Source: Urechidicola croceus
GTDB taxonomy: Bacteria > Bacteroidota > Bacteroidia > Flavobacteriales > Flavobacteriaceae
Direction of reading: 5' to 3'
Assembly (NCBI GenBank): GCA_905181865.1
Contig: CAJIZG010000004.1
Span: 124,001-188,000 of the forward strand
DNA: 64,000 nt
Positions 14,525-24,520 of this stretch are shown here, in pieces. Both the position numbers and the translations under genes were made by a program. Positions within the stretch are counted from its first letter, which is position 1. Each line of letters begins with the position of its first letter. A model generated the notes under the pieces. That model was not told the DNA's origin. It worked only from the letters and a program-made list of their open reading frames with translations, and did not search any database.

Positions 14525-15682
14525 TTAAAGAACTTTACTTATTTCCATTAACTCATGAATGTCTTGATCAACGACTTCTTTTTTCTGATCGGCATATTTT
14601 AAGAACTCTGGATATAAGGCGTCTAATTGAAATTTCGTCAATTCATATCCTACGTTTTTAGCGCGGTATGCCAATGCTGCTCTACCACTGCGGGCCGTTA
14701 AAACTATAGAAGATTTCGTTACACCTACGTCAGTAGGATCCATGATCTCATAAGTCTCGCGATTTTTAATCACGCCATCTTGATGAATTCCAGAACTATG
14801 AGCGAAGGCGTTATCACCAACAATTGCTTTATTAGGTTGTACATACATACCCATGTGTTCTTGAACCATTTTACTTGTTTCAAATAACATTTGAGTATTA
14901 ATATTAGTGTCTAAATTTAAATGTGGATGTTGCTTCATGATCATCACTACTTCTTCTAAAGCAGTGTTTCCAGCGCGTTCTCCAATTCCATTAATTGTAC
15001 ATTCTATTTGACGAGCACCATTTTGAACTCCTGCAATAGCATTCGCAGTTGCTAACCCTAAATCATTATGGCAATGGCAAGAAAGAGTTACATTTTCAAT
15101 ACCCTTTACATTTTCTTTTAAGTACTTTATTTTTGCTCCATATTCTTCTGGCAAACAATAACCAGTAGTATCTGGGATATTTAAAACAGTAGCACCTGCT
15201 TTAATAACAGCTTCACAAACTCTTGCTAAATATTCGTTATCTGTTCTTCCTGCATCTTCGGCATAAAATTCAACATCTTCAACGAAAGATTTTGCATAAG
15301 AAACTGCGGCAATTGCACGCTCAATAATGATTTCTGGAGTGGTGTTAAATTTAAATTTTATATGCGATTCAGAAGTTCCAATCCCGGTATGAATTCTAGG
15401 TCGCTTTGCATGAACCAGAGCTGCTGCCGCAATTTTTATATCGTTTTTATGAGCACGAGTTAAACCGCAAACAGTAGCGTTTTTAACTAATTTTGAAATC
15501 TCTTCAACAGATTTAAAATCACCAGGACTTGATACCGGAAAACCCGCTTCAATGATGTCAACACCGAGTGAGTCAAGTTGCTCTGCAATTATTAATTTTT
15601 GATCCGTATTTAACTTACAACCTGGAACTTGTTCACCATCTCTAAGAGTAGTGTCAAAAATTTGAACTCGATTTGTACTCAT
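14525..15682 (-). CDS. leuA: 2-isopropylmalate synthase, short form (LeuA)
   Basis: Condenses acetyl-CoA with 2-ketoisovalerate in leucine synthesis. The HMGL-like TIM barrel is complete: DTTLRDGEQ at residues 10-18, [11 protein letters not shown], the metal-binding HxH in [16 protein letters not shown], and [15 protein letters not shown]. At 385 residues it lacks the ~120-residue C-terminal LeuA regulatory domain of the long form, so leucine feedback inhibition is not expected. No leuBCD genes occur in the window. A citramalate or homocitrate synthase is an alternative; motif wording favours LeuA. It is divergent from the gene at 15833 across a gap that holds a palindrome. Confidence 0.8.
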
Positions 15683-15832: not shown

Positions 15833-17380
15833 ATGGCTACAGAAAAAAATGACGCATTATTTACCTTGATAAAGTCTTTGTCAAAATCTGAAAAACGTCA
15901 GTTTAAATTGTATGTAGGAAGGCTGGGAGGAAATGCAGATGCAAATTTTATAGCATTGTTTAACATTTTAGATAAACAAACTTCCTATAACGAGAGACAG
16001 ATTCTTCAAAACACGCATATTAAGAAGCAGCAATTATCAAATTCCAAAGCACATCTGTATAAGCAATTGTTAATTAGTTTGCGTTTGAGCCCTTTACATC
16101 AAAATGTAAAAAGTTATCTTAGAGAGCAAATTGATTTTGCTACGATTTTGTATAATAAGGGATTGTACAAGCAAAGTTTAAAGTTATTAGATAAAGCCAA
16201 GAATATGGCAATTGAAAACGAAGAGAATAATCTGGCTTATGAAATAGTAGAGTTAGAGAAAGTCATTGAATCACAATATATTACAAGGAGTTTGGGGAAT
16301 AGAGCTGATGTGTTGGCTGTCCAAGCAAAGGAATTAAGCATGAGAAATGTAACGATAAGTAAATTATCAAATTTATCGTTACAATTATATAGTTGGATGT
16401 TACAAAAAGGATATGCCAAGAGTAATGATGATATAGAATTAGTGACGGATTATTTTAATTCTAGAATGCCAGAATATAAAATTGCTCAATTGGGATTTAT
16501 GGAGAAAATGTTTCTTTATAAGGCATATTTATGGTATAGTCTGATAACGCAAGATTTTATAAGTAGTTACCGGTATTCCCAAAAATGGATAGATATATTT
16601 AACGATAAACCCAACATGAAAAAGGTAAATCCTATTTTTTATTTAAAAGGGTATAATTATCTGTTAGAGTCCTTGTTTATGATTAAGCATCATAAAAAAT
16701 TCAGATCAACCTTAGAAGATTTGAAATTAGATATGGATACCAAGAAATTTTCAATGAATGATAATACAGAAGTGTTGGCTTCTATTTATTATTATCAGAA
16801 TCGTTTGAATTTATTCTTTTTAGAAGCTGATTTTTCGAAGGGTGTTTTATATGTTCCCGAGGTATTGAAAGAGGTAAATCAATTTAAATTAAAAATTGAT
16901 GAACACCATATCATGGTTTTTTATTACAAAATTGGTTGTATGTATTTTGGTGTTGCAGATTATGAGAACTGTATTTTGTATTTGAATAAAATCATATCGA
17001 ATAAAGAATTGGCGATGAGAGAAGATCTATTGTGTTTTTCGAGGGTGTTGAATTTAGTGGCGCATTATGAAGCGGGTTTAGATGAGAATATTGAAAGTTT
17101 AATAAAGTCCACCTTTAAGTTTTTAATTAAGATGAATGATCTTCACGCTGTTCAAAGGAAAATGATTGAATTTTTGAGGAGTTTGACTGAGATGTATCCT
17201 AGTGAATTAAGGGCTGCATTTAAAAAATTACATGCCGAATTGAAGGTTTATGAAAATCATCCATATGAAAAACGATCTTTTTTATATTTAGATATACTTT
17301 CATGGTTAGAAAGTAATATTGAAGGAATTCCGATACCTGAAATAATCAATAGAAAAAATAAGTTATTAAAGAGTGAATAG
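15833..17380 (+). CDS. Hypothetical helical-repeat protein of Flavobacteria
   Basis: 515-residue protein that I cannot assign. It opens MATEKNDALFTLIKSLSKSEKRQFKLYVGRLG and is predicted by eye to be almost entirely alpha-helical, with irregular TPR-like segments such as LYNKGLYKQSLKLLDKAKNMAIENEE (about residues 105-130) and a second set near residues 355-400. There is no signal peptide, membrane segment or catalytic motif. It stands between leuA and the ilv operon on the ilv strand, but the attenuator-like leader separates it from ilvD. The role is unknown. Confidence 0.7.
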   Translation: MATEKNDALFTLIKSLSKSEKRQFKLYVGRLGGNADANFIALFNILDKQTSYNERQILQNTHIKKQQLSNSKAHLYKQLLISLRLSPLHQNVKSYLREQIDFATILYNKGLYKQSLKLLDKAKNMAIENEENNLAYEIVELEKVIESQYITRSLGNRADVLAVQAKELSMRNVTISKLSNLSLQLYSWMLQKGYAKSNDDIELVTDYFNSRMPEYKIAQLGFMEKMFLYKAYLWYSLITQDFISSYRYSQKWIDIFNDKPNMKKVNPIFYLKGYNYLLESLFMIKHHKKFRSTLEDLKLDMDTKKFSMNDNTEVLASIYYYQNRLNLFFLEADFSKGVLYVPEVLKEVNQFKLKIDEHHIMVFYYKIGCMYFGVADYENCILYLNKIISNKELAMREDLLCFSRVLNLVAHYEAGLDENIESLIKSTFKFLIKMNDLHAVQRKMIEFLRSLTEMYPSELRAAFKKLHAELKVYENHPYEKRSFLYLDILSWLESNIEGIPIPEIINRKNKLLKSE

Positions 17381-17419
17381 GAATCTTTTAAAAAAATGAA
17401 TTTTTCGAAAAAATAGTTA

Positions 17420-17427
17420 TATTTTTG
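17420..17427 (+). promoter_or_regulatory. Candidate -7 box of the ilv leader promoter
   Basis: TATTTTTG matches TAnnTTTG and lies 9 bases before the leader-peptide ATG, so the leader transcript may be almost leaderless. The -33 region is T-rich without a clear TTG. Confidence 0.35.
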
Positions 17428-17436
17428 TCTCCATAA

Positions 17437-17499
17437 ATGAATAAAATAGTTAAAAGTAGTATGTCAATTTTAGTCAACTGCGTGGTTATTACCGCATAA
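17437..17499 (+). CDS. ilv operon leader peptide (candidate)
   Basis: A 20-codon reading frame starting ATG at 17437 and ending TAA at 17497-17499. It reads MNKIVKSSM then SILVNCVVITA. Eight of twenty codons specify isoleucine (3), leucine (1) or valine (4), clustered in ILVNCVVI, exactly the amino acids made by the operon that follows. A T-tailed hairpin lies about 40 bases downstream. By analogy with the E. coli ilvGMEDA leader, ribosome stalling on these codons would report branched-chain aminoacyl-tRNA shortage. There is no Shine-Dalgarno sequence, as is usual in this phylum. Expression is not proven. Confidence 0.65.
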   Translation: MNKIVKSSMSILVNCVVITA

Positions 17500-17537
17500 G
17501 TGATAAAGGAATGATATAATATTGACAGAAAATATAT

Positions 17538-17567
17538 AACCTTCCTTGAAAACGGGAGGTTTTTTTG
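17538..17567 (+). terminator. Attenuator terminator of the ilv leader
   Basis: AACCTTCC (17538-17545) pairs with GGGAGGTT (17554-17561, one G-T pair) around an 8-base loop and is followed by a run of T. An alternative pairing of AAGGAA (17506-17511) with TTCCTT (17542-17547) would break this stem and could serve as the antiterminator. Confidence 0.7.
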
Positions 17568-17753
17568 TGAATTAAATAAAAACATTTTTAATATATAGAT
17601 GTGATTGGTGTAAAATGGAATATAATAACGTATTGAAATTAAGCATGTTGAATGCTTTATTTGAGTTTTGCATATTGTAAAAAAAGTGAATAATTGCAAA
17701 TAAAATAAAAGACTCAAGGTACTTTTGAATAATTATAAAAGAATCAAACTTAG
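17568..17753 (+). other. ilvD 5' untranslated stretch with no visible gene
   Basis: AT-rich sequence between the attenuator hairpin and the ilvD ATG. I see no second hairpin with a T tract, no complete promoter and no coding signal. Confidence 0.4.
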
Positions 17754-19430
17754 ATGGAATTAAATAAATACAGTAAAAGATTAACCCAAGATGAATCTCA
17801 GCCAGCTTCTCAAGCGATGCTATATGCTGTTGGTCTGACCGATGAAGATATGAGCAAAGCTCAGGTCGGTATTGCAAGCACTGGTTATGAAGGGAATCCA
17901 TGTAATATGCATTTAAATAATTTGGCTACAGAAGTCAAAACCGAATGTAATATTGCGGGTCAAGTTGGTTTGGTCTTTAACACTATCGGTGTTAGTGATG
18001 GTATTTCTATGGGAACATCTGGGATGAATTATTCTTTAGCTTCTAGAGATATTATTGCAGATTCTATTGAAACGGTAATGAATGCTCAAAGTTATGATGC
18101 GTTGATTTCTGTTGTTGGATGTGACAAAAATATGCCAGGAGCTGTAATTGCTATGTTGCGTTTAAATCGTCCATCAATTATGATGTATGGAGGAACAATT
18201 GCTTCTGGAAAGTACAAAGGAAAAAAATTAAATATTGTTTCTGCTTTTGAAGCTTTAGGGCAAAAAATGGCAGGAGAAATTGAAGAAGAAGAATATAGAG
18301 AAATTATAAAAAGAGCAATTCCAGGAGCAGGTGCTTGTGGCGGAATGTATACGGCAAATACCATGGCTTCTGCTATAGAATGTATGGGTTTTGCATTGCC
18401 TTATAATTCATCAATTCCGGCAGAAAATCCGAATAAATTATCTGAAGCAGAAAGAACCGCTTTGGCGATAAAAAACGTATTAGAATTAGATTTAAAACCT
18501 TTAGATATTATTTCTAAAAAATCTTTAGAAAATGCCATCGCAATTGTAAATGCTTTGGGAGGATCAACAAATGCAGTTTTGCACTTTTTAGCAATTGCAC
18601 ATGCTGCAGATATCGAATTTACTTTGGAAGATTTTCAAAGAGTAAGTGATAGAACGCCATTAATTGCAGATTTAAAACCATCAGGAAAATACTTAATGGA
18701 AGATGTGCATGGAATTGGAGGTACGCCGGCAATCATGAAATATTTATTAGACAATGGCTATTTACATGGAGATTGTTTAACGGTTACAGGAAAAACATTA
18801 GCAGAAAATTTAGCGAATGTTAAAGCCATGGAATTTGACGAGCAAGATGTTATTTATCCGAAGGATAAAGCATTAAAATCATCAGGAAATATTCAAATAA
18901 TTTACGGAAACCTTGCTACTGAGGGGGCCGTTGCAAAAATATCGGGAAACGAAGGTTTGCTTTTTGAAGGAAAAGCAGTGGTTTATGACGGTGAACAAGC
19001 AGCAAATACAGGAATTGCAAACGGAGAAGTAGAAAGAGGTGATGTCGTCGTCATTCGATATGTGGGGCCAAAAGGAGGTCCAGGAATGCCAGAAATGCTA
19101 AAACCAACTTCGCTAATTATGGGAGCAGGTTTAGGAAAATCGGTCGCTTTAATTACGGATGGTCGTTTTTCTGGAGGAACGCATGGTTTTGTTGTCGGTC
19201 ATATTACCCCAGAAGCACAATCTGGAGGCACAATCGGGATTTTAAAAACGGGTGATAAGATTAGAATAAGTGCAGAAGACAATTCAATAAATGTTTTAAT
19301 TTCTGAGAAAGAAATCGCAGAAAGAAAAACACAATGGGTTGCCCCAGCTCTAAAGCATACAAAAGGAATTTTGTATAAATATGCAAAAACGGTAGCATCA
19401 GCATCTAAAGGATGTGTTACCGATTTATAA
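17754..19430 (+). CDS. ilvD: IlvD, dihydroxy-acid dehydratase
   Basis: Iron-sulfur dehydratase for the third common step of valine and isoleucine synthesis, converting dihydroxy acids to 2-keto acids. At 558 residues it is full length. Cluster cysteines are C50 in GNPCNMH, C123 in [10 protein letters not shown] and the cysteine of [13 protein letters not shown] near residue 195, the pattern of the 2Fe-2S IlvD enzymes. The C-terminal [16 protein letters not shown] is characteristic. It is first of the ilvD-B-N-C order and is preceded by the leader peptide and hairpin, which probably control it. Confidence 0.96.
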
Positions 19431-19494: not shown

Positions 19495-21228
19495 ATGGAA
19501 ACGCAAACCATAGAAAACAAAGAAATAGCAACAAAAGTTACAGAAAAAATTTCTGGTAGCGAGGCAATCGTAAGGTGCTTAATTGCAGAAGGTGTAAAAA
19601 TAATTTATGGATATCCTGGCGGAGCAATTATGCCAGTATATGATGAACTATACAAATATCAAGATAAAATTCATCACGTTTTAGCACGTCACGAACAAGG
19701 TGCAACACATGCTGCACAAGGTTTTGCAAGAATTTCTGGTAAAGTTGGAGTTGCAATTGCAACTTCGGGACCAGGGGCAACAAATTTAGTTACAGGTATC
19801 GCAGATGCACAAATAGATTCTACACCAATGGTCTGTATTACTGGACAAGTTGCGTCTCATTTGTTAGGGAGTGATGCTTTTCAGGAAACAGATATTGTTG
19901 GTATTTCTACACCCGTTACAAAATGGAATTGTCAAGTTACTAGAGCAGCAGACATACCAGCAGTTTTAGCAAAGGCATTTTACATTGCAAAATCTGGAAG
20001 GCCAGGTCCAGTTTTAGTAGATATTACGAAAGATGCACAGTTTGAAGATTTTGATTTTTCCTATGAAAAATGTACTAAAATTAGAAGTTATGTTCCGATT
20101 CCGAAAACCGTAATAGGTTCTTTAGAGGCTGCTGCAAAATTAATAAATACTGCAAAAAAACCTTTCATAGTTTGGGGTCAGGGTATTGTTTTAAGTCAAG
20201 CTGAAGAGCAATTTAAAGCGTTGGTAGAAAAAGCAGGAATTCCTGCGGCTTGGACAATTTTGGGGGCTTCGGCATTGCCAACTTCTCATCCATTAAATGT
20301 TGGTATGTTGGGGATGCATGGTAATTATGCACCGAACAAATTAACGAACGAATGTGATGTTTTAATTGCCATTGGAATGCGTTTTGATGATCGAGTTACT
20401 GGGAAATTAGATGAATATGCTACGCAAGCAAAAGTGATTCATTTTGAAATTGATCCTGCAGAAGTAGATAAAAATGTAAAAACAGATGTGGCTGTTTTAG
20501 GCGACGCAAAAGTAACTTTAGAAGCTATTTTGCCTTTAATTGATGAAAATTCTCATGAAGAATGGCATCAGCAATTTAAAAACTTATATGAAATTGAATA
20601 TGAGAAAGTAATTAAAGGCGATCTCTATCCAACGAAAGAAGGGTTAACAATGGGTGAGGTTATTAAGGAAATTAATATTCAAAGTAAAGGAGATGCTGCA
20701 ATTGTTACCGATGTTGGGCAGCACCAAATGATTGCATGCAGATATGCAGAATTTAATAAAACTAAAAGTAATATCACTTCTGGCGGATTAGGAACCATGG
20801 GTTTCGGATTACCAGCAGCAATTGGTGCAAAAATGGCAGCGCCAGAACGCGAAGTTGTTTCAATTTCTGGCGATGGAGGCTATCAAATGACTATTCAGGA
20901 ATTGGGGACTATTTTTCAGCAAAAAGCAGCGGTTAAAATAGTGGTTTTAAATAATGACTTTTTAGGAATGGTTCGTCAATGGCAGCAGATGTTTTTTGAA
21001 AAAAGATATGCATCCACCGAAATGGTAAATCCAAATTTTGTTGCCATTGCAGAAGGATATTATATAAAAGCAAAGAAAGTTACAAAACGTGAAGAATTAG
21101 CAGCTGCAGTGGCAGAAATGATGGCGAGTAAAGAGGCCTATTTTTTAGAAGTTTGTGTAGAAAAAGAAGGAAATGTGTTTCCAATGGTTCCTTCTGGAGC
21201 CAGTGTTTCAGAAATAAGACTAGAGTAA
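19495..21228 (+). CDS. ilvB: IlvB, acetolactate synthase large subunit
   Basis: ThDP- and FAD-dependent enzyme that condenses pyruvate with pyruvate or 2-ketobutyrate. At 577 residues it is full length. The N-terminal ThDP domain has GYPGGAIMPVYDELY and the catalytic-glutamate segment HEQGATHAAQGFAR. A central FAD/DHAP-type domain follows, and the C-terminal diphosphate-binding motif is ISGDGGYQMTIQELGT through VVLNND. The first ~20 residues (ETQTIENKEIATKVTEK) are a variable extension. It is followed after a single base by the regulatory subunit ilvN, indicating translational coupling. Confidence 0.97.
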   Translation: METQTIENKEIATKVTEKISGSEAIVRCLIAEGVKIIYGYPGGAIMPVYDELYKYQDKIHHVLARHEQGATHAAQGFARISGKVGVAIATSGPGATNLVTGIADAQIDSTPMVCITGQVASHLLGSDAFQETDIVGISTPVTKWNCQVTRAADIPAVLAKAFYIAKSGRPGPVLVDITKDAQFEDFDFSYEKCTKIRSYVPIPKTVIGSLEAAAKLINTAKKPFIVWGQGIVLSQAEEQFKALVEKAGIPAAWTILGASALPTSHPLNVGMLGMHGNYAPNKLTNECDVLIAIGMRFDDRVTGKLDEYATQAKVIHFEIDPAEVDKNVKTDVAVLGDAKVTLEAILPLIDENSHEEWHQQFKNLYEIEYEKVIKGDLYPTKEGLTMGEVIKEINIQSKGDAAIVTDVGQHQMIACRYAEFNKTKSNITSGGLGTMGFGLPAAIGAKMAAPEREVVSISGDGGYQMTIQELGTIFQQKAAVKIVVLNNDFLGMVRQWQQMFFEKRYASTEMVNPNFVAIAEGYYIKAKKVTKREELAAAVAEMMASKEAYFLEVCVEKEGNVFPMVPSGASVSEIRLE

Positions 21229-21229
21229 G

Positions 21230-21751
21230 ATGAATACAGAAAAACAACTATATACCATATCAGTTTACACCGAAAATAATATTGGATTGTTGAATAGAAT
21301 ATCAGCAATATTCCAAAGAAGACATATCAATATTGAGAGTTTAAACATCTCTCCTTCAGAAATTGAGGGTATAGCTAAATTTATAATTGTAGTCAATATG
21401 ACCGAGGTAAACGTAAAGAAGATTATTGGTCAAATAGAAAAACAAGTAGAGGTAATTAAGGCATACTTTCATAATCTTGAAGAAATTATTTATCAGATTT
21501 CTGGATTGTTTAAAATCAAATCAGAATTGTTATTTGAGGAACGTCAAATTCAAAACATCATTAAAGAAAGTAATGCTAGAATTGTTACCGTAAATAAAGA
21601 GTTTTTTGTGCTTGAAAAGTCAGGAAAAAAAGAAGAAATAGCTGAATTATACAATCAGCTAAGTGTATATGGCATTATGCAATACACACGTTCAGGTTTA
21701 ATTGCTGTGACCAAAGAAGCAATGAAAATATCAGAATTATTAAAATATTAA
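21230..21751 (+). CDS. ilvN: IlvN, acetolactate synthase small (regulatory) subunit
   Basis: Regulatory subunit that activates IlvB and confers valine feedback. At 173 residues it is normal length. An N-terminal ACT domain covers about residues 8-80 (YTISVYTENNIGLLNRISAIFQRRHINIESL), and a second ACT-like region follows to the end (MQYTRSGLIAVTKE). The ATG lies one base beyond the ilvB stop and 28 bases before ilvC. Confidence 0.93.
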   Translation: MNTEKQLYTISVYTENNIGLLNRISAIFQRRHINIESLNISPSEIEGIAKFIIVVNMTEVNVKKIIGQIEKQVEVIKAYFHNLEEIIYQISGLFKIKSELLFEERQIQNIIKESNARIVTVNKEFFVLEKSGKKEEIAELYNQLSVYGIMQYTRSGLIAVTKEAMKISELLKY

Positions 21752-21779: not shown

Positions 21780-23258
21780 ATGGCAAATTATTTTAATACC
21801 CTTTCGTTGAGAGAGCAACTAGCACAATTAGGTGTTTGTAAGTTTATGGAAACTTCTGAATTCTCAGAAGGCGTTAACGCGTTGAAAGGAAAAAAAATCG
21901 TAATTGTAGGTTGTGGAGCGCAAGGATTGAATCAAGGGTTGAATTTAAGAGATTCAGGTTTAGATGTTTCTTACGCATTGCGTGAAGGTGCTATTACAAG
22001 TAAACGTCAATCATTTTTAAATGCAAGTGAGAATGGATTTACTGTTGGTACTTATAAAGAAGTAATTCCTACAGCTGATTTGGTAAGTAATTTAACTCCA
22101 GACAAACAGCACACTAGTGTTGTAAACGCTGTAATGCCGTTGATGAAAAAAGGAGCAACATTATCGTATTCTCACGGATTTAATATTGTTGAGGAAGGAA
22201 TGCAAGTTCGTAGAGATATTACAGTAATCATGGTTGCGCCTAAGTGTCCAGGATCAGAAGTTAGAGAAGAATATAAAAGAGGGTTTGGTGTACCAACATT
22301 AATTGCTGTACACCCAGAGAATGATCCAGAGGGAAAAGGATTTGATCAAGCAAAAGCCTATGCTGCTGGTACAGGTGGACATAGAGCGGGAGTGTTACAT
22401 TCTTCTTTTGTAGCAGAGGTAAAATCTGATTTAATGGGTGAGCAAACAATTCTATGTGGATTGTTACAAACTGGATCTATCTTATGTTTTGATAAGATGG
22501 TAGAAGAAGGAATTGAGGCAGGTTATGCTTCTAAACTAATCCAATACGGATGGGAAACTATTACAGAAGCAATGAAGTATGGTGGAATTACGAATATGAT
22601 GGATCGTCTCTCTAACCCTGCTAAAATCAAAGCATTTGAATTGTCTGAAGAATTAAAAGGAATCATGCGTCCATTATTCCAAAAGCATATGGATGATATC
22701 ATTCAAGGTCACTTTTCTAAAACAATGATGGAAGATTGGGAGAACGATGATAAAAATTTATTGACTTGGAGAGCGGCTACCGGTGAGACAAATTTTGAGA
22801 AAACGCCTGCTGCAGATATTGAAATTTCTGAGCAAGAATATTTTGATAACGGTGTCTTAATGGTTGCGATGGTAAAAGCTGGTGTAGAGTTGGCTTTCGA
22901 AGCAATGACTGAATCTGGAATCATTGAAGAGTCTGCTTATTATGAATCTTTACACGAAACGCCATTAATTGCGAACACAATTGCTCGTAAAAAATTATTT
23001 GAGATGAATCGTGTTATTTCTGATACTGCTGAATACGGATGTTACTTATTTGACCATGCATGTAAGCCTTTATTAAAAGACTTTATGAAAGGTATTAAAA
23101 CAGATGTTATCGGTACTCAATTTGGAGTAGGTGGAGGAAATGGTGTTGATAACAAAGAATTAATTTTTGTTAACGAAAACATCCAATCTCATCCAATTGA
23201 AGATGTAGGATATGAATTGCGTCTTTCTATGACTTCAATGGCTAAGATTGTATCATAA
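21780..23258 (+). CDS. ilvC: IlvC, ketol-acid reductoisomerase (class II, long form)
   Basis: Isomerises and reduces acetolactate or acetohydroxybutyrate using NADPH and magnesium. The 492-residue length marks the class II form with a duplicated knotted C-terminal domain, in contrast to the ~330-residue class I. The nucleotide-binding motif is [20 protein letters not shown] near residue 42, and [11 protein letters not shown] and [20 protein letters not shown] are typical. Codon use looks less AT-biased and more even than in ilvD/ilvB, as in highly expressed genes. The decayed ilvA begins 24 bases after its stop. Confidence 0.96.
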
Positions 23259-23282: not shown

Positions 23283-24520
23283 ATGGCAGAACCAAATAAA
23301 ATAGTGTCTTTGGACCTAATTTATAAGGCAAGCAAAAACATCAAAGGTGTTATAAAAGCAACACCTTTGATGTTTGTAAAGTCTTTTTCTGATAGGTATC
23401 ATGCCTCAATTCCTTTTAAAAGATAGGATCTGCAAGTAGTCCATTTTTATAAATTAAGAGGTGCTTATAATAAGATGAAAATACTTTCTTCTAAGGGATT
23501 CAAGGGTGGCGTAGTCTGCGCGAGTGCTGGAAATCATGCGCAAGTGGTTGCTTTTGCTGGTAAGGAATTAAAAGTAAAAGGAGTTATTTTTAGGCCCTTA
23601 ACTACGCCTAGGCAAAAAGTAAATCAAGTTCGTATGTTCGGTGAAAAATTTACCGAAATTAAATTGATTGGAGATACCTGCGATGAAAGTTATCATGCAG
23701 CAAAGTAATTTTGTACATCCTTTTGATGATGTAGAGGTTATTACTGGTCAAGGAACTGTTAGGTCTAAAAATTCTGAACGAAACAGACGCTAAAATTGAT
23801 TATTTAATTTTACCTGTTGGAGGTGGAGGTTTGGCTTCTGGTGTGGGAAGTGTATTTAGGGATTTGAGTCCCGAAACAAAAATTATAGGTGTTGAGCTTA
23901 CTGGTGCGTCATCTTTAACTGTTTCGTTGAGAAACAATAAGAATACAGAACTTGAAAACGTTGAAAATTTTGTTGACGGAGCTTCTGTAAGGCTTATGGG
24001 CGATGGTAATTTTGAATATTGGAAGAATGGTTTAGATGAATTTTTGACCATAGATGAAGGGTTAATTTGTTTAACTATATTGAAAGTTTATAACGAAAAT
24101 GCTTTGGTGGTTGAGCCAGCGGGCGCTCTGAGTATTATAGCATTGGAATTGTTGGAGGAAAAAATTAAAGGTAAAAATATTGTTTGTTTGGTGAGTGGCG
24201 GAAACAACGATATTACCCGTATGGAAGAGATAAAAGAACGCGCTCTTTTGTATGAAGGTTTAAAACATTATTTCTTGGTTAAGTTTCCACAGCGGCCAGG
24301 AGCCTTAAAGGAATTTGTTGTAAGTGTATTGGGAGATACTGATGATATTGTGCATGTTCAATATACAAAGAAAAACCAAAGATCTATGACTACCGCTTTG
24401 GTAGGTATTGTTTTGAAAAGCAAAAGTGATTTTAAGCCATTAATTTCAAGGATGGAGGCGTTTGGGTTCTTAGGTGAGTATCTCAACGATAATGAGCAAT
24501 TATTTGAGTGTATAACCTAA
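23283..24520 (+). pseudogene. ilvA: Decayed ilvA, threonine dehydratase
   Basis: Remains of biosynthetic threonine deaminase, which makes 2-ketobutyrate for isoleucine. The frame opens at ATG 23283 but meets TAG at 23424-23426 where the family has KREDLQ. It then continues in frame until a stop at 23706. There about ten codons of the family sequence are missing and the frame shifts. A further extra base near 23761 (in GTTAGGTCTA) shifts it again before the long intact tail from 23831. Other losses: the PLP-lysine segment reads VVHFYKLRGA with Phe replacing Ser, and SAGNHAQ is followed by V instead of G. The tail keeps SGGNNDITR and the C-terminal regulatory domain. At least three disabling lesions make a sequencing error unlikely. 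Confidence 0.9.

Follow-up and report, generated by a model that had tools for sequence, protein, structure and literature searches.

A probable near-leaderless leader-peptide attenuator in front of the ilv operon of Urechidicola croceus and related Flavobacteriaceae

The window analyzed here, a 64,000-nt stretch of the Urechidicola croceus genome, contains a cluster of ilv genes preceded by a short open reading frame and a hairpin, which raises the question of whether transcription of these genes is controlled by attenuation. The cluster lies on the forward strand and comprises ilvD (dihydroxy-acid dehydratase; 17754-19430), ilvB (acetolactate synthase large subunit; 19495-21228), ilvN/ilvH (acetolactate synthase small subunit; 21230-21751) and ilvC (ketol-acid reductoisomerase; 21780-23258), followed by a broken ilvA (threonine ammonia-lyase; 23283-24520), of which only the C-terminal half is open, from position 23831. 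The Escherichia coli ilvGMEDA and ilvB operons carry leader-peptide attenuators. An attenuator had also been proposed for the window, and the sequence evidence gathered here supports that original prediction, to which we add a pairing between leader codons and the antiterminator strand, a second candidate promoter (P2) and the broken ilvA. Very probably, the element located 5′ of ilvD-ilvB-ilvN-ilvC controls ilvDBNC transcription by ribosome-mediated (leader-peptide) attenuation.

The element begins with a putative sigma-A −7 box, P1 (TATTTTTG, matching TAnnTTTG; 17420-17427, + strand), ending 9 nt before the leader ATG, as had been noted originally. Because the corresponding box of Flavobacterium psychrophilum spans −12 to −5 (PMC9723704), transcription is predicted to start near 17432, leaving a leader 5′ UTR of approximately 5 nt. 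Thus, of the earlier suggestion that the transcript is leaderless, the very short 5′ end is retained, but a zero-length 5′ UTR is not, and the RNA is better described as near-leaderless. The predicted 5′ UTR would be unusual, since 87% of the predicted transcripts of F. johnsoniae have leaders longer than 10 nt (PMC6847099).

The leader frame (MNKIVKSSMSILVNCVVITA plus stop; 17437-17499, + strand) has counterparts in genus loci and in the family. Its 20 codons include eight for Ile, Leu or Val (positions 4, 5, 11, 12, 13, 16, 17 and 18), in agreement with the earlier count. Codons 11-13 (Ile-Leu-Val) and 16-18 (Val-Val-Ile; together 17467-17490, + strand) are presumed to exert the main control and align with the Ile/Val run of relatives. 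Several RNA segments of the + strand can be distinguished within and behind this frame, and their helices are numbered as in alignment A2, described below. Strand 1 (17456-17471; leader codons 7-12) is the putative anti-antiterminator and pairs with strand 2 (helix 1). A small hairpin over the last leader codons, GUGGU-UAUU-ACCGC (17482-17495; codons 16-20, helix 4), is the candidate pause hairpin. Strand 2, the antiterminator strand (AAGGAA, a bulged U and G; 17506-17517), starts 7 nt past the leader stop, and its AAGGAA (17506-17511) can pair with TTCCTT (17542-17547); this alternative partner belongs to strand 3, the terminator 5′ arm with the loop edge (17541-17547). The intrinsic terminator, AACCUUCC...GGGAGGUU with a T-run (17538-17566, −10.0 kcal/mol, helix 5), consists of a hairpin at 17538-17561 and the T-run at 17560-17566.

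The 181-nt segment 17420-17600 folds with a z score of −3.07, which was equalled by none of 200 shuffles. A detector requiring a frame with at least six Ile/Leu/Val per 10 codons, followed by a terminator within 60 nt, found no match in 1000 dinucleotide shuffles of 17380-17753; this detector is not perfectly specific, and in the real window it gave one match on the + strand (the leader, 17437-17499) and two on the − strand.

For comparison, ilvD loci were collected from three sources: 80 loci from named genomes, among which the nearest were those of Polaribacter and other Flavobacteriaceae, 14 genomes of the genus, and 299 genomes of the family, 244 of them with a match. The 108 family loci outside the genus came from the upper part of the list of 244 matching genomes, and G027, which had no upstream DNA, was left out. 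A leader was accepted if it had an ATG start, at least five Ile/Leu/Val per 10 codons and a terminator within 110 nt, the search extending at most approximately 850-900 nt 5′ of ilvD. Twelve matches were removed by eye (L027 first, L040, L045 first, L048, L050, L099, L115, L121 second, L135, L143, L144 and L154) before 105 curated rows were obtained, in which identical rows were kept once; L115 is a real element, removed because of a wrongly chosen terminator.

A leader with a terminator was found 5′ of ilvD in 60 of the 108 family genomes outside the genus and, besides the window, in nine of 12 genus loci (L083-L087, L090-L092 and L095), with none found 5′ of ilvD in the remaining three (L088, L089 and L093). 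Elements were also present in loci labelled Saprospiraceae (L036, L055 and L024), Ignavibacteriae (L020) and Bacteroidetes (L080). The typical leader of a relative is MKKQILNIISIIVIVIISQR. The 2010 codons of 104 curated leaders include 607 for Ile, 281 for Val and 133 for Leu, a richness that is partly built in, because it served as a selection criterion. An alignment of the region 5′ of ilvD had been named in advance as the check on the attenuator, and in it the Ile/Leu/Val codons recur in relatives, together with compensatory changes in the leader stems and the terminator.

Three terminator types could be distinguished among the 105 curated rows: type A (CCTTCC...GGAAGG and close variants; 71 rows), type B (CCTGTATC...GATACAGG; 22 rows) and type C (TCCCTT; six rows), with six further rows of other types. 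A TTTG or ATTG motif lies 8-12 nt 5′ of the leader ATG in 53 of the 71 type A rows. In eight of the 22 type B rows it is only 4-5 nt from the ATG, and a 5′ UTR of 0-1 nt is predicted for these. Two curated units occur in tandem at ten loci (L009, L020, L029, L037, L092, L095, L148, L168, L187 and L191), in seven of them in the order type A then type B.

Decaying attenuators, in which the leader start, frame or terminator is gone and the remainder is still recognizable, were observed at L088, L004, L112, L118, L133 and L138. Matches to the terminator model R1 (see below) were also recorded at a distance of over 1 kb 5′ of ilvD, two at L057 and one at L011.

In the relatives, leader codons 7-10 (typically AUAUCAUUUC) pair with a strand at or just past the stop codon (GGAAUGGUAU), and a small hairpin (GUGAUUAUUUCAC) is nested inside this long 1:2 stem; the GGAAUGGUAU strand has an alternative partner in the terminator 5′ arm. 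With the pairing of leader codons and post-stop strand, which is new here, the element has the predicted layout of a full four-strand attenuator. Alignment A1 comprised 57 of 70 type A references (13 left out, with the window in place of L082). Model R1 describes the terminator helix only, whereas covariance model R2 describes the full structure; the R2 alignment, A2, contains 71 matches from 70 of 75 sources.

In A2, 25 of the 30 pairs change on both sides and 87.6% of cells are paired, compared with 46-56% in slid controls with partners moved by 1-3 columns, and on all five covariation measures none of 500 shuffles reached the observed value; A2 was fitted to the tested structure and hence favours it. 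Changes on both sides were seen in eight of the 10 pairs of helix 1 (strands 1:2), in three of the four pairs of helix 4 and in eight of the nine pairs of helix 5, where 96.4% of cells are paired. Thus, the T-tailed terminator of the original prediction covaries, and the small hairpin that it had placed over the last leader codons recurs in relatives. Counterparts of the latter are GTGATTATTTCAC and, in L117, GTGGATAATCCAC; in L117 the peptide VDNP replaces VIIS, and the hairpin is preserved through matching changes. The elements, their conservation and these compensatory changes are features of the sequences themselves.

When synonymous codons were randomized in the 71 type A leaders, the fold became weaker in 70 of them (mean z −2.70); the fold is weakened with the peptide unchanged, and therefore the RNA, not the peptide alone, appears to be selected. 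Strand 1 was also paired with permuted instead of its own strand 2, and the number of permutations as good was 0 for type A, 371 for type B and 340 for type C, each of 20000; these permutations, like those of strands 2:3 below, take no account of relatedness.

The same approach, applied free of any alignment to the antiterminator strand, gave −10.70 kcal/mol for the stop-region segments of all 105 rows with their own terminator arms vs −8.05 kcal/mol with permuted ones (0 of 20000 as good). By type, permutations as good numbered 0 of 20000 for A and 90 of 20000 for B, and type C antiterminators (n = 6) were not better than permuted ones (2499 of 20000). In 103 of the 105 rows the antiterminator strand pairs more strongly than the segment just upstream of it. 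The AAGGAA/TTCCTT antiterminator proposed earlier is therefore borne out by the preference for the own terminator arm, but not in the fixed register of A2: there, the 2:3 helix is not above shuffles in its fraction of paired cells (79.4% vs 78.7%; 88 of 500), further pair types were matched in 478 of 500 shuffles, and slid controls reached 46-69% paired, although cells with changes on both sides did exceed shuffles (22 vs 6.2; 10 of 500). We think that the 2:3 register moves between lineages.

The antiterminator strand and the leader stop overlap in 42 of the 71 type A and 16 of the 22 type B rows; the strand starts 0-12 nt past the stop in 19 type A and five type B rows, and lies wholly 5′ of it in 10 of the 71 type A rows and one type B row. 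A ribosome terminating at the stop codon would hide the antiterminator strand. A mini-ORF within this strand (GGAATGGTATATTAA, encoding start-Val-Tyr-stop in some relatives) was considered and rejected, as its AUG is not conserved: it is lost through changes at A2 columns 40/108, and L108, L116, L130 and L191 have ACG or ATC.

The window's own copy is less supported than those of its relatives. Of the 30 consensus pairs 24 are formed, and of the eight antiterminator pairs seven, with the bulged U of the relatives; the energy of its antiterminator duplex is −6.4 kcal/mol. In the alignment register of strands 1:2 (17456-17465 with 17508-17517), eight of 10 positions pair in the window. In the window's minimum-energy fold the register is shifted, 17460-17466 lying opposite 17512-17518 and 17468-17471 opposite 17507-17510; even so, the AGGA of the antiterminator strand stays hidden under codons 11-12. 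The small hairpin (17482-17495) is present in this fold. The mean probability of upstream pairing of strand 2 is 0.58 in the window vs a type A median of 0.85, and synonymous-codon randomization of the window leader was not significant (z −1.51; 17 of 200 as good). An R1 search of the genome gave the element as the sole clear match (E = 1.6e-10; next match 0.24).

We infer start sites, pausing, stalling, termination and the amino-acid response from this layout, and propose the following sequence of events. Transcription would start approximately 5 nt 5′ of the leader AUG. The 1:2 stem enclosing the small hairpin would form behind RNA polymerase and probably pause it, and during this pause a ribosome could load onto the very short 5′ end. 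With Ile, Leu and Val plentiful, the ribosome would reach the stop codon and cover strand 2, so that strands 3:4 form the terminator. In the absence of translation, strand 2 would be sequestered by the 1:2 stem and the terminator would form too. If branched-chain aminoacyl-tRNA were short, the ribosome would stall at codons 11-18, covering strand 1 and leaving strand 2 free; the 2:3 helix would then form, the terminator would be blocked and transcription would enter ilvD. Given the size of a ribosome footprint, codon placement in the window and in relatives fits a stalled ribosome on strand 1 and a stop-codon ribosome over strand 2. P2, located behind the terminator, would supply transcription outside attenuator control.

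The P2 −7 box (TACTTTTG; 17720-17727, + strand) lies 3′ of the terminator, with a predicted start at approximately 17732 and a 5′ UTR of approximately 22 nt. TAnnTTTG is present at its aligned place in the window and in all seven aligned genus mates. An exact TAnnTTTG lies within the 110 nt preceding ilvD at 48 of 121 family and genus loci (window included), vs 8.8 in letter shuffles; for TAnnTT[TC]G and a segment of 220 nt the count is 100, vs 25.6. We read P2, which is new here, as a candidate second, unattenuated promoter with a possible operator; it would bypass the terminator and could carry most of the transcription. The possible operator, GTGATTGGTGTAAAA (17601-17615, + strand), recurs as GTGATTGGTGTA or TGATTGGTGTA in four of the seven aligned genus mates (L083, L084, L087 and L088). 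It is possibly the counterpart of the TTGAACATCATAAAA / TTGAATATGATAAAA block of other relatives, which in the genus is replaced by, or has diverged to, GTGATTGGTGTA.

The noncoding block between the terminator and ilvD (17601-17727 in the window) is conserved in L101, L132, L017, L025, L137, L141 and L145, in the order TTGAACATCATAAAA / TTGAATATGATAAAA, CTGATAATCAG, ATTGAATTTAA and then the TAnnTTTG box. At least 13 of the 17 letters of the longer block motif were found in 76 of the 121 loci, vs 10 in shuffles, and the TTGAACATCATAAAA/TTGAATATGATAAAA block is kept in loci where an attenuator was not found (L137, L141, L145 and L025). Folding of the block upstream of P2 revealed no common structure by eye, and Rfam (E ≤ 5, nine relatives) gave no trusted match in it. 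The possibility that TTGAACATCATAAAA is a regulon-wide operator was examined in four relatives with at most one mismatch and was rejected, the matches being too loose for a regulon (5 to 13 per genome vs 0 to 4 for a reversed control); the exact sequence occurred once each in two of the four, 5′ of ilvD.

The broken ilvA bears on whether the attenuator is still in use. The open frame in the window has 261 residues, compared with 419-458 in the seven genus mates with a match, and it is the only match in the genome, in which a second ilvA was not found. The break is either a real loss, entailing isoleucine auxotrophy or another route to this amino acid, or an assembly fault. The window leader has three Ile codons vs seven to eight in seven genus mates and six in L092 and L095 (first leader of each). 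Among the family genomes, a curated attenuator was found in 55 of 86 ilvA-positive and five of 22 ilvA-negative ones (Fisher p = 0.0007, relatedness ignored), and the 31 ilvA-positive genomes with no curated attenuator include L115, whose real element had been dropped. In L003 and L004, where this type of ilvA is absent, the leader is absent or only a relic. A strict rule of "no ilvA, no attenuator" was rejected, as an attenuator persists in five ilvA-negative genomes and nothing more than a relic is left in some ilvA-positive ones. The leader of L132 is intact and Ile-rich despite the absence of ilvA, whereas L118, where ilvA is present, retains only a relic, and L002, also with ilvA, a shortened leader. 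The window also encodes, at 14525-15682 (− strand), a short LeuA-like 2-isopropylmalate synthase of 385 aa, whose gene diverges from the one preceding the ilv operon; this protein could bear on the source of the isoleucine precursor if ilvA is truly lost.

These data might be taken to mean that the window element is itself a relic, in which, with ilvA broken and the leader drifting, the ilv genes are transcribed mainly from P2 (17720-17727) and the attenuator regulates little. The genome lacks a full-length ilvA frame, the leader retains three Ile codons where nine genus mates have six to eight, relics do exist (L004, L088, L112 and L118), and a P2-like block is also present at loci where no attenuator was found. 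We nevertheless consider this unlikely, as the window keeps the box, open frame, control codons, hairpin, antiterminator strand and terminator, with 24 of 30 consensus and seven of eight antiterminator pairs forming and an R1 E-value of 1.6e-10, and the ilvA-negative L132 (135 bits) and L161 (94 bits) keep strong elements.

It is far less probable that the hairpin simply terminates the same-strand gene lying upstream (15833-17380), the leader being a frame that arose by chance in DNA whose AT richness favours Ile codons. That gene ends approximately 160 nt before the hairpin; however, a −7 box whose distance to the ATG is kept in relatives lies between it and the leader, the leader structure and post-stop strand are conserved and covary, and none of the 1000 shuffles produced such a frame with a terminator. 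Least credible of all is a riboswitch, a leader RNA that binds a metabolite or protein and contains the frame by coincidence: a conserved structured RNA 5′ of a biosynthetic operon would suit it, but at Rfam gathering scores the whole window gave only a tRNA and no known leader family, the conserved stems lie inside the frame and around its stop codon, and Ile/Val richness (by selection) is common to type A, type B and type C leaders despite changes in RNA sequence.

The mechanism of leader-peptide attenuation is already known. The E. coli ilv attenuators, compared by layout, likewise place an Ile/Leu/Val-rich leader and antiterminator/terminator strands before ilv genes. Their leaders have a normal 5′ leader and a ribosome-binding site, unlike the predicted 5′ UTR of approximately 5 nt found here. 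E. coli ilv attenuation is named in PMC10272879, which also describes the ilvB-OMG and ilvB motifs as predicted branched-chain leader RNAs. Among worked-out cases, the leaderless Corynebacterium glutamicum ilvBNC attenuator is the nearest by layout. PMC11857589 and PMC10272879 describe a leaderless mRNA start with branched-chain codons for the Corynebacterium ilvBNC attenuator/ilvB-II motif, and the former lists terminator, antiterminator and anti-antiterminator hairpins, the same three roles as here. Corynebacterium differs in phylum, in a leader usually of 15-17 codons and in ilvB as the first gene.

Attenuation of this classic kind is little described in Bacteroidota, and among the open-licence literature matches listed none concerned, by title or start of abstract, an ilv attenuator in this phylum. 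The transcriptome report on F. psychrophilum, also a flavobacterium, mentions "strong clues" of leader-peptide attenuation before amino-acid operons and conserved 5′ elements for pheA and hisG among others (PMC9723704); "ilv" is absent from its main text. In the same phylum, Bacteroid-trp (RF01692) is a cis-regulatory motif (PMC2864571), and in Bacteroides thetaiotaomicron short ORFs within long 5′ UTRs are called "reminiscent of leader peptides" (PMC7366714), these being suspected leader peptides but not of ilv, with no structure given in the passages on them. As for ilvB-OMG, ilvB and Bacteroid-trp, only a tRNA reached the Rfam gathering score in the window, and Rfam may not hold every motif. 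The tandem units resemble Salmonella mgtCBR, where two attenuators act in series (PMC3641672); the signals of mgtCBR differ, whereas in the tandems found here (e.g. L009, L037, L092 and L187) both leaders are branched-chain-rich.

A wider reading, to which we give somewhat less than even credence, is that the elements form a Bacteroidota class of near-leaderless attenuators (0-8 nt 5′ end) with an antiterminator at the stop codon, tandem units with differing terminators and Ile codons that erode upon ilvA loss; if so, the leader would be a record of the cell's remaining capacity to make particular amino acids. Members of the phylum naturally lack Shine-Dalgarno sequences (PMC6847099), and the present model, with alternative pairings and support from covariation, describes branched-chain attenuation in such a setting and enables a direct test of ribosome-RNA polymerase coupling on near-leaderless RNA. 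The locus suggests ilv control in two layers, an attenuated P1 and an unattenuated P2, and among the relatives attenuators range from intact through eroding to lost, a natural series for comparison with ilvA loss.

Comparison of the leaders of nine relatives with Rfam gave only sub-threshold matches to Thr_leader and Phe_leader. Two loci carry a SAM-II riboswitch (RF01726) above the gathering score, L104 (937-1019, − strand) and L132 (503-592, + strand), in both cases approximately 90 nt upstream of the ilv attenuator and on the other strand.
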